The translations under genes and the position numbers were made by a program. From Microbacterium immunditiarum (GTDB lineage Bacteria; Actinomycetota; Actinomycetes; Actinomycetales; Microbacteriaceae), in assembly GCF_013409785.1 (NCBI RefSeq), contig NZ_JACCBV010000001.1, forward strand, positions 310,001 to 374,000: 64,000 nucleotides of DNA, written 5' to 3'. Below, one piece after another: positions 49,939 through 53,953 of the stretch (positions are counted from its first letter, which is position 1; each line of letters begins with the position of its first letter). Under the pieces are notes generated by a model. That model saw only the letters and a program-made list of their open reading frames with translations, had not been told where the DNA came from and made no database searches.

Positions 49939-49973
49939 TACCTATGGACATTCCCTATGGTCATAGGTAATCT
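49939..49973 (+). promoter_or_regulatory. Promoter/operator of the metF-purU-O-demethylase operon
   Basis: TGGACA (49945-49950), 17 bases, TAATCT (49968-49973). The spacer holds the palindrome CCTATG-GT-CATAGG (49954-49967), and a further CCTATGG half-site is at 49941-49947. TACCTATG/CATAGGTA also pair over 49939-49969. The PadR protein at the operon end is the nearest regulator. Confidence 0.5.
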
Positions 49974-50022
49974 GACAACGGCCGCACCGAAGCGGCGCGA
50001 CCCGAGAGGAACGGACCTCACA

Positions 50023-50913
50023 GTGGCCACCATCACCCCCGCCCAGAACAAGGCTGCCGCTCGCGAGCTCGTGAGCGGGTTCTCGCTGGAGATGACCGGG
50101 AAGGACGTGCCGGGACTCCAGGAGGCCGCGCACGCGATCCCGCAGGGAACCAAGATCAACGTCACGTTCCTCGGCAACGAGGACCTCGACATGCGGGTGT
50201 CCGCGGCGAAGGCGGTCAAGGACCTCGGCTTCGTGCCCGTGCCGCACATCTCCGCCCGCCGCCTGCGGAGCCAGGACCAGCTCGAGGAGTTCCTCGGCCG
50301 CCTGCAGGAGGTCGGCGCGACCGAGCACGTCTTCGCGGTGGGTGGCGACCCGACAGAGCCCGAGGGCCCGTACCCGGACTCGCTGAGTGTCATCCGCACC
50401 GGCCTGCTGCAGAAGTACGGCGTGCGCGAGGTGTCGATCGCCGGCTACCCGGAGGGTCACCCCGACATCAAGGACGACGTGCTGTGGCGTCACCTCGAGG
50501 ACAAGTCCGCGTCGCTGAAGGAGCAGGGCCTGGACGCGGTCATCCTCACCCAGTTCGCGTTCGACACCGACCCGGTGCTCACGTGGATCAAGGGCGTGCG
50601 CGATCGCGGCATCGACACCGAGATCCGCATCGGCACCCCCGGCCCGGCCGGCATCAAGCGGCTGCTCGGCTTCGCGCGCCGGTTCGGCATCGGCGCCAAC
50701 GCGATGATCGTCAAGAAGTACGGCTTCTCGCTCACGAACCTGATGGGCACCGCCGGTCCCGACAAGTTCGTCACCGACCTCTCCAGCCTGCTCGCCGACG
50801 CTTCGGCGGGCTCAGCGACCGGCTACGGCCCCGTGAAGCTGCACTTCTACACGTTCGGCGGCCTGCTGGCCACGTCGGAGTGGGTCCGCGACTACCTGGC
50901 CGCGCAGGCCTGA
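50023..50913 (+). CDS. metF: Methylenetetrahydrofolate reductase family protein
   Basis: A 296-residue TIM-barrel flavoprotein of the MTHFR family: FSLEMTGKDVPGLQEAAHAIPQGTKINVTFLGNED opening, VPHISARRLRSQDQLEEFL near 76, VFAVGGDPTEPEGPYPDSL near 105, SIAGYPEGHPD near 140, and QFAFDTDPVLTWIKGVRDRGIDTEIRIGTPGPA near 180. GTG 50023 (MATITPAQ) is preferred to ATG 49957, which lies inside the operator palindrome. In this operon it probably runs in reverse of the biosynthetic direction, oxidising 5-methyl-THF to 5,10-methylene-THF. Confidence 0.88.
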   Translation: MATITPAQNKAAARELVSGFSLEMTGKDVPGLQEAAHAIPQGTKINVTFLGNEDLDMRVSAAKAVKDLGFVPVPHISARRLRSQDQLEEFLGRLQEVGATEHVFAVGGDPTEPEGPYPDSLSVIRTGLLQKYGVREVSIAGYPEGHPDIKDDVLWRHLEDKSASLKEQGLDAVILTQFAFDTDPVLTWIKGVRDRGIDTEIRIGTPGPAGIKRLLGFARRFGIGANAMIVKKYGFSLTNLMGTAGPDKFVTDLSSLLADASAGSATGYGPVKLHFYTFGGLLATSEWVRDYLAAQA

Positions 50914-50945
50914 TCCACCTGAACCTCGTCCGAGGAGATTCCCGA

Positions 50946-51830
50946 ATGTCCCCGCACATCGAACCCAAGCGCGACCAAGCATGCCTGATCGTGCACGGCC
51001 CCGACCAGCCCGGTCTGGTCGCCGCCGTCACGGGCCTCATCACCCGCAACAAGGGCAACATCGTCACCCTCGACCAGTACTCCGACAACCCCGAGGGCGG
51101 CGCGTTCTTCCAGCGGGTCGTGTTCCACCGCCCCGACCTGGCGGCCGCGATCGACGACATCGAGGCCGACCTGGCCAAGACCCTCAAGCCCCTCGGGGTG
51201 CAGTGGACGCTGACCGACCAGTCGATCCCGAAGCGGATGGCGATCCTCGCCTCGACGAGCGACCACTGCCTGCTCGAGCTGCTGTGGCGCCACCGCCGCG
51301 GCGAGCTGCCGGTGACGATCCCGATGGTGATCTCGAACCACACCAACACCGCCGAGGACGTCCGCGCGTTCGGCATCCCGTTCTTCCACGTCCCCTCTCA
51401 GGGGCCTGACAAGAGTGAGGCCGAGGCGAAGATCCTCGAACTGCTCAAGGGCAACGTCGACTTCGTCGTCCTCGCGCGGTACATGCAGATCATCTCGGAG
51501 GACTTCCTCGAGAAGGTCGGCGTGCCGATCATCAACATCCACCACTCGTTCCTGCCCGCCTTCATCGGCGCCGCCCCGTACCGCAAGGCGAAGGAACGCG
51601 GCGTGAAGCTGATCGGCGCGACCAGCCACTACGTGACCAAGGACCTCGACGAGGGCCCCATCATCGAGCAGGACATCGCCCGCGTCGACCACCGAATGAG
51701 CGCCGCCGACCTCCAGGCCCGGGGCGCCTACGTGGAGCGTGCGGTGCTGTCGCGCGCCGTGCAATGGCACGCCGAAGACCGGGTCATCCGCCACGGCAAC
51801 CACACCATCGTCTTCACCGACCGACCCTGA
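50946..51830 (+). CDS. purU: Formyltetrahydrofolate deformylase
   Basis: A 294-residue enzyme. The N-terminal ACT domain (ACLIVHGPDQPGLVAAVTGLI, about 11-90) is followed by a formyltransferase fold with KRMAILAS near 97, FVVLARYMQIIS near 180, INIHHSFLPAFIGAAPY (catalytic Asn-x-His) near 197 and TSHYVTKDLDEGPIIEQD (catalytic Asp) near 222. It hydrolyses 10-formyl-THF to THF and formate. It starts 32 bases after metF. Its presence here points to disposal of methyl groups rather than purine synthesis. Confidence 0.93.
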   Translation: MSPHIEPKRDQACLIVHGPDQPGLVAAVTGLITRNKGNIVTLDQYSDNPEGGAFFQRVVFHRPDLAAAIDDIEADLAKTLKPLGVQWTLTDQSIPKRMAILASTSDHCLLELLWRHRRGELPVTIPMVISNHTNTAEDVRAFGIPFFHVPSQGPDKSEAEAKILELLKGNVDFVVLARYMQIISEDFLEKVGVPIINIHHSFLPAFIGAAPYRKAKERGVKLIGATSHYVTKDLDEGPIIEQDIARVDHRMSAADLQARGAYVERAVLSRAVQWHAEDRVIRHGNHTIVFTDRP

Positions 51831-51887: not shown

Positions 51888-53300
51888 GTGGCCAAGAATC
51901 TCCAGGAGCTCCTGGACCAGACCAACCCGGTCGAGCTGCTGCGCAACTCGCAGATCGGCTCGTACATCTACCCCGTCGTCCCGGCGGACTTCTCGTCGTG
52001 GATCAAGGAGCAGAAGGCGTGGCGCGACACGGCCGTCCTCTACGACCAGTCGCACCACATGGACAACGTCTTCCTCAAGGGCTCGGACGCGATCAAGCTC
52101 ATCTCCGACACCGCGATCAACTCGGTCGCGAACTTCGCCGTGAACAAGGCGAAGCAGTACGTGCCCACGACCGCGTCGGGTCACGTGATCGGCGACGGCA
52201 TCCTCTTCCGCGAGGCCGAGGAGGAGTACGTCTACGTCGGTCGTGCCCCCGCGTCGAACTGGCTGCTCTTCCACGGTGAGACCGGCGGATACCAGAACCT
52301 CGACATCTCGGTCGACCGCCGTTCGCCGTCGCGTCCGTACGGCCACGCCGTCTCGCGCCAGTACTACCGCTTCCAGATCCAGGGCCCGAACGCGTGGGCG
52401 GTCATCGAGAAGCTCAACGGCGGCCCGCTCGAGAAGCTCGGCTTCTTCAACATGTCGACGATGCAGATCGCCGGCAAGCAGGTCCGCACGCTGCGCCACG
52501 GCATGGCGGGCGCCCCCGGCCTCGAGATCTGGGGCCCGTACGAGGACCACGACGCGATCCGCGACGCGATCGTCGAGGCGGGCGCCGAGTTCGGCCTGCT
52601 GCCGGTGGGCTCGCGCGCCTACCCGTCGAACACGCTCGAGTCGGGCTGGATCCCCTCGCCGCTGCCCGCCATCTACACGGGCGAGGAAGAGCGCGCCTAT
52701 CGCGAGTGGCTCGGCGTGGACAGCTACGAGGCGACCGGCACGCTCGCCGGCTCGTTCGTCTCCGACAACATCGAGGACTACTACCTCACCCCGTGGGAGC
52801 TCGGCTACGGCTCGTTCGTCAAGTTCGACCACGACTTCATCGGCCGCGACGCGCTCGGGAAGGTCGACCCGGCGTCGCAGCGCAAGAAGGTCACGCTCGC
52901 GTGGGACCCCGAGGACATGACGAAGATCTACGGCTCGCTCTTCAACGTGGAGGGTCCGAGCTACAAGTTCTTCGACCTGCCCCTCGCGAACTACGGCTCG
53001 GCGAACTACGACGCCGTGGTCGACGCCGACGGCACCGTCGTGGGCTTCTCGATGTTCACGGGCTACAGCTCGAACGAGCGTCGTGCGCTGTCGCTCGCGA
53101 CGATCGACCCGGATGTCCCGGAGGGCACCGAGCTGCGCGTCCTGTGGGGCGAGGAGCCGAACTCGAAGAAGGCCACGGTCGAGCCGCACGTGCAGCTGCC
53201 CGTGCGCGCGGTCGTCAGCCCCGTGCCGTACTCGACGGTCGTCCGCCAGTCGTACCACGGCGGATGGCGCACCGGATACGAGAACGTCGCGACGTCCTGA
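51888..53300 (+). CDS. LigM/DesA-like tetrahydrofolate-dependent O-demethylase (second copy)
   Basis: A 470-residue GcvT-fold protein beginning [34 protein letters not shown], then [40 protein letters not shown] and [10 protein letters not shown], the LigM/DesA pattern. Later blocks [26 protein letters not shown] and [19 protein letters not shown] match the copy at 25077-26480, so they are paralogs. GTG 51888 has AGAGAGG upstream. Co-operonic metF and purU supply the expected C1 recycling steps. The substrate is probably a methoxylated aromatic acid; an N-methyl or other methyl donor is possible. Confidence 0.8.
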
Positions 53301-53307
53301 CCCGAGA

Positions 53308-53344
53308 CCCGAGGGGGTTCGCCCGCACAGGGCGGGCCCCCTCG
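53308..53344 (+). terminator. Hairpin after the O-demethylase gene
   Basis: CGAGGGGG at the left pairs with CCCCCTCG at the right, and an inner CGCCC/GGGCG pair stacks on it. It lies eight bases beyond the stop and before padR, so padR may be partly separated from the operon. Confidence 0.55.
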
Positions 53345-53374
53345 CACCACATGCCGCCGCGTCCGAGGAGAATC

Positions 53375-53953
53375 ATGAGCCTGCGCTTCGCCCTACTCGC
53401 GATCCTTCGCGTGGGGCCCCTGTCGGGATACGACCTGCAGAAGCAGTTCCACCAGTCGGTCGGTCATGTGTGGCACGCGCCCGACTCGCAGATCTATCCC
53501 GAGCTGCGCAAGATGGAGACCGACGGCCTCATCGAGGGCGAGGAGCAGACGCGCGGCGAGCGCGGCACTCGTCGCGTCTACCACGTGACGGATGCCGGCG
53601 AGCGCGCTTTCCTCGAGTGGATGGAGTCGCCACTGGACTACCAGCGGGTGCGAGACCCCGCCCATCTGCGGGCGGCGTACCTCGAGTCGGCCACGCCCGC
53701 GGCGGCGCGCGAGTTCCTCGAGCGCCACATCGCCCATTGGGAGAGCGAGCTCGAGCAGTTCGACGGCGAGCTCACGCACATCGCCAACCTCAGCAACCCG
53801 ATGCTCACGAGGCGCCTCGCGGTGACGCCCGACGAGGACCGCGAGCGCACGATCGAGTTCAAGCGCTTCGCGTACGAGGGCCTCGCCGAGCGCGCACGCG
53901 TCGAGATCGAATGGGCGAGGCGGGGCCTCGAGCTTCTCGACCGGCTCTACTGA
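53375..53953 (+). CDS. PadR-family regulator (Vir/PadR C-terminal type)
   Basis: A 192-residue repressor. The winged helix MSLRFALLAILRVGPLSGYDLQKQF...SQIYPELRKMETDGLIEGE is at 1-60, followed by a helical dimerisation region (AREFLERHIAHWESELEQFDGELT) and a C-terminal arm. PadR controls phenolic acid genes in Gram-positive bacteria. GAGGAG precedes ATG 53375. Downstream of the C1 cassette, it is the likely sensor of the methoxylated aromatic substrate. Confidence 0.88.
   Translation: MSLRFALLAILRVGPLSGYDLQKQFHQSVGHVWHAPDSQIYPELRKMETDGLIEGEEQTRGERGTRRVYHVTDAGERAFLEWMESPLDYQRVRDPAHLRAAYLESATPAAAREFLERHIAHWESELEQFDGELTHIANLSNPMLTRRLAVTPDEDRERTIEFKRFAYEGLAERARVEIEWARRGLELLDRLY

Follow-up and report, generated by a model that had tools for sequence, protein, structure and literature searches.

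The locus considered here raises the question of what four adjacent genes in Microbacterium immunditiarum do with methoxylated aromatic acids and what switches them on. The window, meaning the whole stretch of 64,000 nucleotides (nt) that was analyzed, comprises bases 310001-374000 of a 3.9-Mb single-contig genome, and the genes in question (metF, purU, ligM, and padR; Table 1) run intact and head to tail on its plus strand at 50023-53953. The answer favored here, with a probability of about four in five, is that they form a vanillate-inducible operon for folate-dependent O-demethylation, and that the genes for FolD and for a second LigM (ligM2), located elsewhere on the chromosome, are under the same switch. 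The identities of the genes, their predicted operator, and the genes in front of which that operator recurs are taken up in turn below, followed by the alternatives.

The first step is to ask whether the four genes belong together. The gaps between them are 32, 57, and 74 nt, and the GTG codon was chosen as the metF start, with the alternative in-frame ATG at 49957 falling within the predicted operator. Gene order was compared among LigM loci obtained from one scan of species genomes, in which the best 80 of 558 confirmed candidates were kept, a set biased to close relatives (Microbacteriaceae, Brevibacterium, and Micrococcaceae). A metF gene is present somewhere in 70 of these loci, the other 10 having no metF match, and lies on the same strand within 1.2 kb upstream of ligM in 53, with purU between the two in 37 of those. 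Likewise, padR occurs at most 400 nt downstream of ligM in 46 loci. The full order metF-purU-ligM-padR is found in 33 loci, and 12 more have metF-ligM-padR without purU. This gene order is more than chance, and the four-gene arrangement described in an earlier note on this DNA recurs in relatives. The distribution of LigM is patchy: LigM-type matches (E up to 1e-80) were obtained in 18 of 79 evenly drawn Microbacterium genomes, all 18 of which encode a LigM of at least 69% identity, and in 13 of 396 evenly drawn genomes of the phylum, DesA-like proteins included. One 720-amino-acid predicted protein (P0058) carries both LigM and PadR domains and is either a fusion or a read-through product of adjacent genes in their usual order.

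The product of the third gene determines the chemistry. This protein scores 856.1 bits against the NCBIfam LigM equivalog NF047885 (cut-off 580) and 595.3 bits against the DesA model NF047633, below the cut-off of 800. Among solved structures, it matches the LigM entries 5tl4 and 5x1i best (723 bits), against 51 bits for the top GcvT chain. In a maximum-likelihood tree of 70 rows, the protein (LigM1) falls inside an actinobacterial LigM group (32 rows, support 98/98), which joins the group of Sphingobium SYK-6 LigM (97/88) within a wider LigM group of 36 rows (100/99). This tree has the organism's own GcvT as distant outgroup; SYK-6 DesA is not among its rows, and Agrobacterium fabrum is represented by a plasmid-borne protein of strain Kin001 rather than by the studied Atu1420. 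Tyr245 of LigM1 shows no variation in either of the alignments made; by count through the structure alignment it corresponds to Tyr247, the catalytic tyrosine of LigM. By the curated cut-offs and the tree, the third gene is a true LigM, and its assignment as a DesA, GcvT, DmdA, or sarcosine-type protein was rejected. The alignment and tree suggested in the earlier note place the protein with aryl demethylases rather than with non-aryl methyltransferases. LigM1 is most likely a THF (tetrahydrofolate)-dependent vanillate O-demethylase.

In the proposed pathway, LigM would transfer the methoxyl methyl group of vanillate, or perhaps of 3-O-methylgallate, to THF, and the products would be protocatechuate and 5-methyl-THF. 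The divergent MetF would then convert 5-methyl-THF to 5,10-methylene-THF, FolD would convert this to 10-formyl-THF, and PurU would release formate and free THF. The sequences show what the genes encode, and the directions of the reactions are inferred. The operon MetF exceeds the Pfam MTHFR cut-off of 24 bits (Table 1) and reaches only 34.6 bits against the housekeeping model TIGR00676 (cut-off 293.7). Its nearest solved chain is 7xg9/7xlf at 303 bits, compared to about 30 bits for E. coli-type MetF chains. The 7xg9 chain is presumably the SYK-6 MetF, a demethylation-linked methylenetetrahydrofolate reductase. A separate housekeeping metF is present in the genome at 2988713. Judged by these scores, the operon MetF is of a divergent type and not the housekeeping enzyme, and it is predicted to run as a 5-methyl-THF dehydrogenase. 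The SYK-6 reductase has been presented as the exemplar of a subfamily that favors methyl-THF oxidation and has coevolved with a LigM-type demethylase (PMC13001107). Across the phylum, MetF-like proteins of 27-37% identity are found more often than LigM: 43 of 396 genomes have a match at E up to 1e-30, and only three of these reach 60% identity or more. Thus, membership in the broad MetF family alone is no sign of demethylation.

PurU scores above its family cut-off (Table 1). FolD (447.7 bits, cut-off 401) is needed between the MetF and PurU steps, and its gene is absent from the operon. The earlier note had proposed THF-dependent aryl O-demethylation with MetF and PurU recycling, which the LigM equivalog call and the tree support. 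Its description of the route as self-contained is too strong, since FolD is encoded about 3 Mb away, though behind the same predicted operator.

The fourth gene offers a clue to the inducer. Its product exceeds the Pfam PadR (PF03551) cut-off of 27 with 62.8 bits and matches PDB entries 6lg2 and 5z7b over its full length (residues 1-191, 162.9 bits). Entry 6LG2 is VanR of Corynebacterium glutamicum with vanillic acid, in whose pocket Arg148 and Tyr103 hold the vanillate carboxylate and Tyr168 holds the hydroxyl and methoxyl groups (PMC7090077). All three of these polar contacts are kept in the PadR protein, as Tyr102, Arg147, and Tyr167, and the triad is kept in 49 of 49 full PadR orthologues of the loci; one more orthologue is truncated where its contig stops. 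The VanR pocket residues Val29 and Leu145 are also kept. By homology, the PadR protein is a VanR relative, and vanillate is its probable effector; the sequence supports the PadR control claimed in the earlier note, with a VanR-type regulator that retains the vanillate contacts. VanR of C. glutamicum represses the Rieske vanABK genes, and vanillate lifts this repression (PMC8358305). In the absence of vanillate, the M. immunditiarum regulator would occupy a dyad in the spacer that separates the -35 box from the -10 box, thereby blocking RNA polymerase, and vanillate binding would free the dyad. Both the binding of PadR to this dyad and the mode of repression are predictions.

The candidate dyad, CCTATG-NN-CATAGG, lies upstream of metF inside the 17-nt promoter spacer (49951-49967). 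The consensus of 56 aligned sites is ACCTATGGNCATAGGT, a 16-bp dyad in a 17-nt spacer between TTGNCA-like and TANNNT-like boxes, and the extra half-site CCTAT at the -35 box is also seen in this alignment. At the -10-like columns 15, 16, and 20, the 56 sites carry T in 50, A in 56, and T in 43, respectively. In the window alone, a search tolerating three mismatches finds the dyad as often as chance would predict (two rows at one place; 34 of 100 shuffles reach two); its weight comes from conservation. A 16-position matrix built from metF-upstream sites (53 training sites) found 96 sites of at least 14 bits in whole-locus scans of the 80 loci (1,012 kb), compared to three to six in each of five shuffles. 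The metF-upstream tally covers 68 loci (10 have no metF match and two are short of upstream length), and in it the operator precedes metF in 49 of 49 loci holding padR. A site stands before metF or the best ligM in 49 of 50 padR-bearing loci; the exception, L087, begins too near ligM to show one. The C. glutamicum VanR operator may resemble this dyad.

The position of the site differs among loci. In Arthrobacter loci such as L122, L124, L126, and L130, ligM is a separate unit, and it has the site (24 bits) where metF has none. Eight Arthrobacter or Citricoccus loci (these four plus L127, L125, L131, and L133) have the operator before ligM, and padR was not found in the fetched stretch. The LigM genes of L128, L129, L135-L137, and L141-L143 (71-73%) have no site of at least 9 bits directly before ligM; in several of these loci the site precedes metF instead.

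How far the switch extends was assessed in the genome itself. Only three places, 359954, 3365146, and 3432229, match the pattern in both orientations when a single mismatch is tolerated. The first is the metF-purU-ligM-padR operon (26.5 bits). The second lies 61-74 nt before ligM2 (22.5 bits), whose product scores 904 bits against the LigM equivalog. The third lies about 30 nt before the folD ATG, in the intergenic stretch that separates folD from a serine hydroxymethyltransferase gene (21.7 bits). Three other one-mismatch hits (1003581, 1956776, and 2647050) match one strand only and were set aside. Matrix scores upstream of the housekeeping metF (-8.8 bits) and of the three DesA-like paralogues of this genome (-6.6, 1.4, and -5.1 bits) indicate no operator. 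Overall, the one-mismatch pattern gives nine rows in this genome versus two for a backward-read control. Because the same predicted operator precedes ligM2 and folD, one regulator would induce methyl transfer and cofactor recycling jointly.

In a sample of the genus, the folD site occurs only in LigM-bearing genomes. In the evenly drawn sample, a site of at least 8 bits precedes folD in six of 18 LigM-bearing and none of 56 LigM-less Microbacterium genomes (Fisher p 1e-4). The highest folD-upstream score among the latter is -0.7, and shuffled sequences reach 8 bits in 0.9% of cases. These 74 scored genomes omit G500 and G513 (no folD match), G479 and G498 (near a contig end), and G506 (off contig). 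When five previously seen genomes are set aside (the own genome; G375; G541, whose folD coordinates equal those of G455; and two without LigM, G316 and G402), the counts are three of 15 versus none of 54 (p 0.009). Among genomes chosen as operon carriers or controls, seven of 25 folD genes, not counting that of this genome, reach at least 9 bits, all of them in Microbacterium. Scores were below 9 bits in the chosen genomes of M. azadirachtae, M. yannicii, M. helvum, and two LigM-less Microbacterium, as well as in those of Brevibacterium, Sinomonas, Arthrobacter, and five other Microbacteriaceae. Furthermore, six of seven LigM2-like genes (67-72%) in the loci carry the site, the miss being a copy in L112 that follows ligM1. 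None of nine scored DesA-like genes (41-49% identity) in relatives carries the operator, where genes with fewer than 380 aligned residues or less than 160 nt upstream were left out. Thus, the regulon looks confined to LigM-type genes.

Several observations count against a vanillate-responsive PadR regulon of this kind. Two pocket positions differ from VanR, with Met133 replaced by Glu and His142 by Asn. The matrix was trained on the metF sites themselves, and the tallies are uncorrected for shared ancestry. The one-mismatch pattern outnumbers its backward-read control in only seven of 24 related genomes (equal in two, rarer in 15). Bare pattern counts are thus often not above control, so the evidence rests on position plus matrix score, and lone one-mismatch hits mean little. 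Also, the folD site is absent in 12 of the 18 LigM-bearing Microbacterium genomes. Finally, the operator precedes metF in eight of 19 loci without padR in the fetched stretch (11 lack it), and a site precedes metF or the best ligM in 21 of 30 such loci. This last observation would fit a dyad that is a real operator bound by some other regulator, with padR as a passenger. Such an arrangement seems unlikely given that 49 of 50 padR loci have the site, that padR-bearing genomes contribute at least four of the 21 as second loci, and that the vanillate pathway of C. glutamicum, an analogous one, is governed by the homologous VanR (PMC8358305). The 21 include five ligM2 loci, and for four of these five the padR operon of the same genome is found elsewhere among the 80; this accounts for only part of the 21.

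Additional hints regarding the inducer and the substrate come from a different demethylase. A Rieske vanA gene is present in four of the 80 loci, and the operator stands close before all four (24.1-28.8 bits). The VanA_C domain was confirmed in the two VanA proteins that were checked (165 and 175 bits), and in L138 and L139 vanA, padR, metF, and ligM occur together. Most simply, a single vanillate sensor may serve two unrelated demethylation chemistries in this related group. VanA_C (PF19112) has no match in the M. immunditiarum genome, and the same search was positive in four of 14 control genomes, including C. glutamicum. In six Brevibacterium loci (L091, L092, L098, L100, L101, and L103), a copy of the operator lies 16-89 nt before a major facilitator superfamily (MFS) transporter gene that is oriented divergently to the metF operon. 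One such protein was checked; its nearest family is aromatic acid/H+ symport, whose cut-off it does not reach (341.8 vs 418.55 bits). Within the window, a pca operon with pcaH as its first gene runs out of the left edge; pcaH, pcaG, and pcaC score above their cut-offs and pcaB below. This operon is the likely fate of the protocatechuate product. Taken with the VanR-type contacts and the lack of VanA_C matches, it agrees with the methoxylated aromatic acid that the earlier note had put forward as substrate. Microbacterium has been labelled by 13C-veratric acid in groundwater incubations (PMC10602745).

The genes around ligM2 bear on the same issue. Its back-to-back neighbors encode a PIG-L protein, a 4-carboxy-4-hydroxy-2-oxoadipate aldolase (293 bits against NF006731, cut-off 179; 273 bits against TIGR02798, below the cut-off of 304.5), a 4-oxalomesaconate tautomerase (443 bits, cut-off 440), and a catechol-2,3-dioxygenase-like extradiol enzyme (283 bits, below the cut-off of 320). 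The neighborhood suits 3-O-methylgallate and gallate, which suggests that LigM1 and LigM2 may divide the work between vanillate and syringyl-derived acids. The same chemistry could instead serve mainly another methoxylated acid, either 3-O-methylgallate or a xenobiotic such as dicamba, for which a LigM-like THF-dependent enzyme is known (PMC9404685), with vanillate secondary. Although ligM2 stands beside genes of the 4-oxalomesaconate pathway, this alternative has a small chance of being correct in view of the vanillate contacts kept in the regulator, the operator before vanA in four of four related loci, and the nearby pca operon. A chief role in supplying one-carbon (C1) units for methionine and purine biosynthesis, with MetF in its usual reducing direction, can draw on the link between the SYK-6 ligM operon and C1 metabolism and methionine supply (PMC6888825), but it is highly improbable because a housekeeping metF exists elsewhere and formate release by PurU suits disposal.

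Table 1. Coordinates of the operon, its predicted control elements, and the pca gene at the left edge of the window (window positions)
Feature	Position	Strand	Basis or remark
metF (divergent methylenetetrahydrofolate reductase)	50023..50913	+	Pfam MTHFR 39.5 bits; PDB 7xg9/7xlf 303 bits
purU (formyltetrahydrofolate deformylase)	50946..51830	+	TIGR00655 352.9 bits, cut-off 285.95
ligM1 (vanillate/3-O-methylgallate O-demethylase)	51888..53300	+	GTG start; NF047885 856.1 bits; PDB 5tl4, 5x1i; tree
padR (VanR-type repressor, predicted)	53375..53953	+	PDB 6lg2/5z7b 163 bits; PF03551
Predicted VanR/PadR operator CCCTATGGTCATAGGT	49953..49968	strandless	12/12 dyad positions; 26.5 bits with 16-bp matrix
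Extra half-site CCTAT	49941-49945	+	conserved columns -12..-8, 56-site alignment
-35-like hexamer TGGACA	49945-49950	+	overlapped by extra upstream half-site CCTAT; conserved columns -8..-3, 56-site alignment
-10-like hexamer TAATCT	49968..49973	+	17 nt past -35-like hexamer
pcaH 5' part (protocatechuate 3,4-dioxygenase beta)	1..623	-	TIGR02422 338.8 bits, cut-off 296.4; start codon not settled

Other genes near these loci might also act on aromatic compounds. The ligM2 island (about 3361416-3389818; L009, L010) holds two more DesA-like genes, and its VOC-type extradiol dioxygenase may act on gallate or methylgallate. A tannase-like gene adjoining ligM2 (L009:13820-15437) is split across two frames. 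Next to the operon, membership was not shown for the upstream peptide ABC transporter (44479-49760, minus strand) or for a DUF6351 gene just downstream of padR on the opposite strand (54041-56410, minus strand). The DUF6351 protein (tannase-like Pfam, 758 bits) has a signal-like N-terminus by eye and might free phenolic acids from esters. Elsewhere in the window, 25077-26480 (minus strand) encodes an aryl-O-demethylase-like protein that stays below the cut-offs for both LigM (496 bits, cut-off 580) and DesA (529 bits, cut-off 800). Its neighbors at 24047-24988 (minus), 26685-28373 (plus), and 28401-29612 (plus) include a thiamine diphosphate-dependent enzyme, a flavin mononucleotide-dependent hydroxyacid dehydrogenase with mandelate dehydrogenases among its solved relatives, and an amidohydrolase that is a distant relative of 5-carboxyvanillate decarboxylase. 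This cluster may serve to process methoxylated mandelates, for example vanillylmandelate. At 41763-43465 (minus) are a UGSC-family protein and a 345-amino-acid neighbor with no NCBIfam match, adjoined by an IclR-like gene and a peptide ABC transporter.

Several known systems parallel parts of this arrangement. In Sphingobium SYK-6, LigM and MetF are encoded in one operon, ligM-metF-ligH, under the MarR-type DesR, with recycling of 5-methyl-THF on the vanillate/syringate route (PMC6888825). In M. immunditiarum, the deformylase PurU replaces the ligase LigH, a VanR-type PadR replaces the MarR-type regulator, and folD is under the same predicted operator. The A. fabrum genes Atu1418-1419-1420 likewise comprise a LigM-type demethylase, a MetF homologue, and a dedicated repressor. 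This repressor, however, is of the GntR type, its proposed effector is methylene-THF rather than an aromatic acid, and purU goes unmentioned in the available part of the paper (PMC7797058). C. glutamicum has a homologous PadR-type vanillate-binding repressor, but it governs Rieske VanAB rather than a THF route, and its operator lies downstream of the -10 box, not between -35 and -10 as here (PMC8358305; PMC7090077). On plasmid pRop44186_a of Rhodococcus opacus DSM 44186, genes for folD, purU, metF, and an aminomethyltransferase are annotated in a row, and a LigM (67.7% identical) adjoins a 4-carboxy-4-hydroxy-2-oxoadipate aldolase. That cluster differs in containing folD and class III extradiol dioxygenase genes, and no PadR-family gene is named in 19 kb of incomplete annotation. 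Near its LigM, the same locus (L308, 483245-502633) has folD, purU, metF, pabB, a DesA-like gene, and a gene of the Mur ligase family, and it may bring its own folate supply genes.

LigM- and DesA-type genes have been reported from actinobacterial metagenome genomes (PMC9296663), and among the 120 homologues listed, several from Microbacterium are already named vanillate/3-O-methylgallate O-demethylase. With the proteobacterial systems of SYK-6 and A. fabrum also preceding it, the cassette as such is of a known kind, and the earlier note overstated its novelty. What looks new, from the comparisons made here, is the VanR-type control, the spread of the predicted operator to ligM2 and folD, and an operator common with Rieske vanA. 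Neither a PadR- or VanR-controlled THF route nor the spread or sharing of its operator was found described in the open-licence papers searched, which is weak evidence of absence.

On balance, we lean toward a history in which Microbacteriaceae, Brevibacterium, and Micrococcaceae kept VanR and exchanged the oxygen-dependent Rieske VanAB for folate-dependent LigM, after which the regulon spread to cofactor-recycling genes. In part of Microbacterium, the housekeeping folD would then have been captured by operator gain and become induced by a lignin monomer. If the favored reading is correct, these bacteria would possess an oxygen-independent, formaldehyde-free actinobacterial entry to guaiacyl lignin monomers, governed by a defined control element, and they would provide a clear case of a single sensor and operator common to two unrelated demethylation chemistries. 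The takeover of a central one-carbon gene, folD, by a catabolic regulon also becomes testable. For lignin use, the practical value would lie in a matched LigM-MetF-PurU-FolD set and a vanillate switch from a Gram-positive host.

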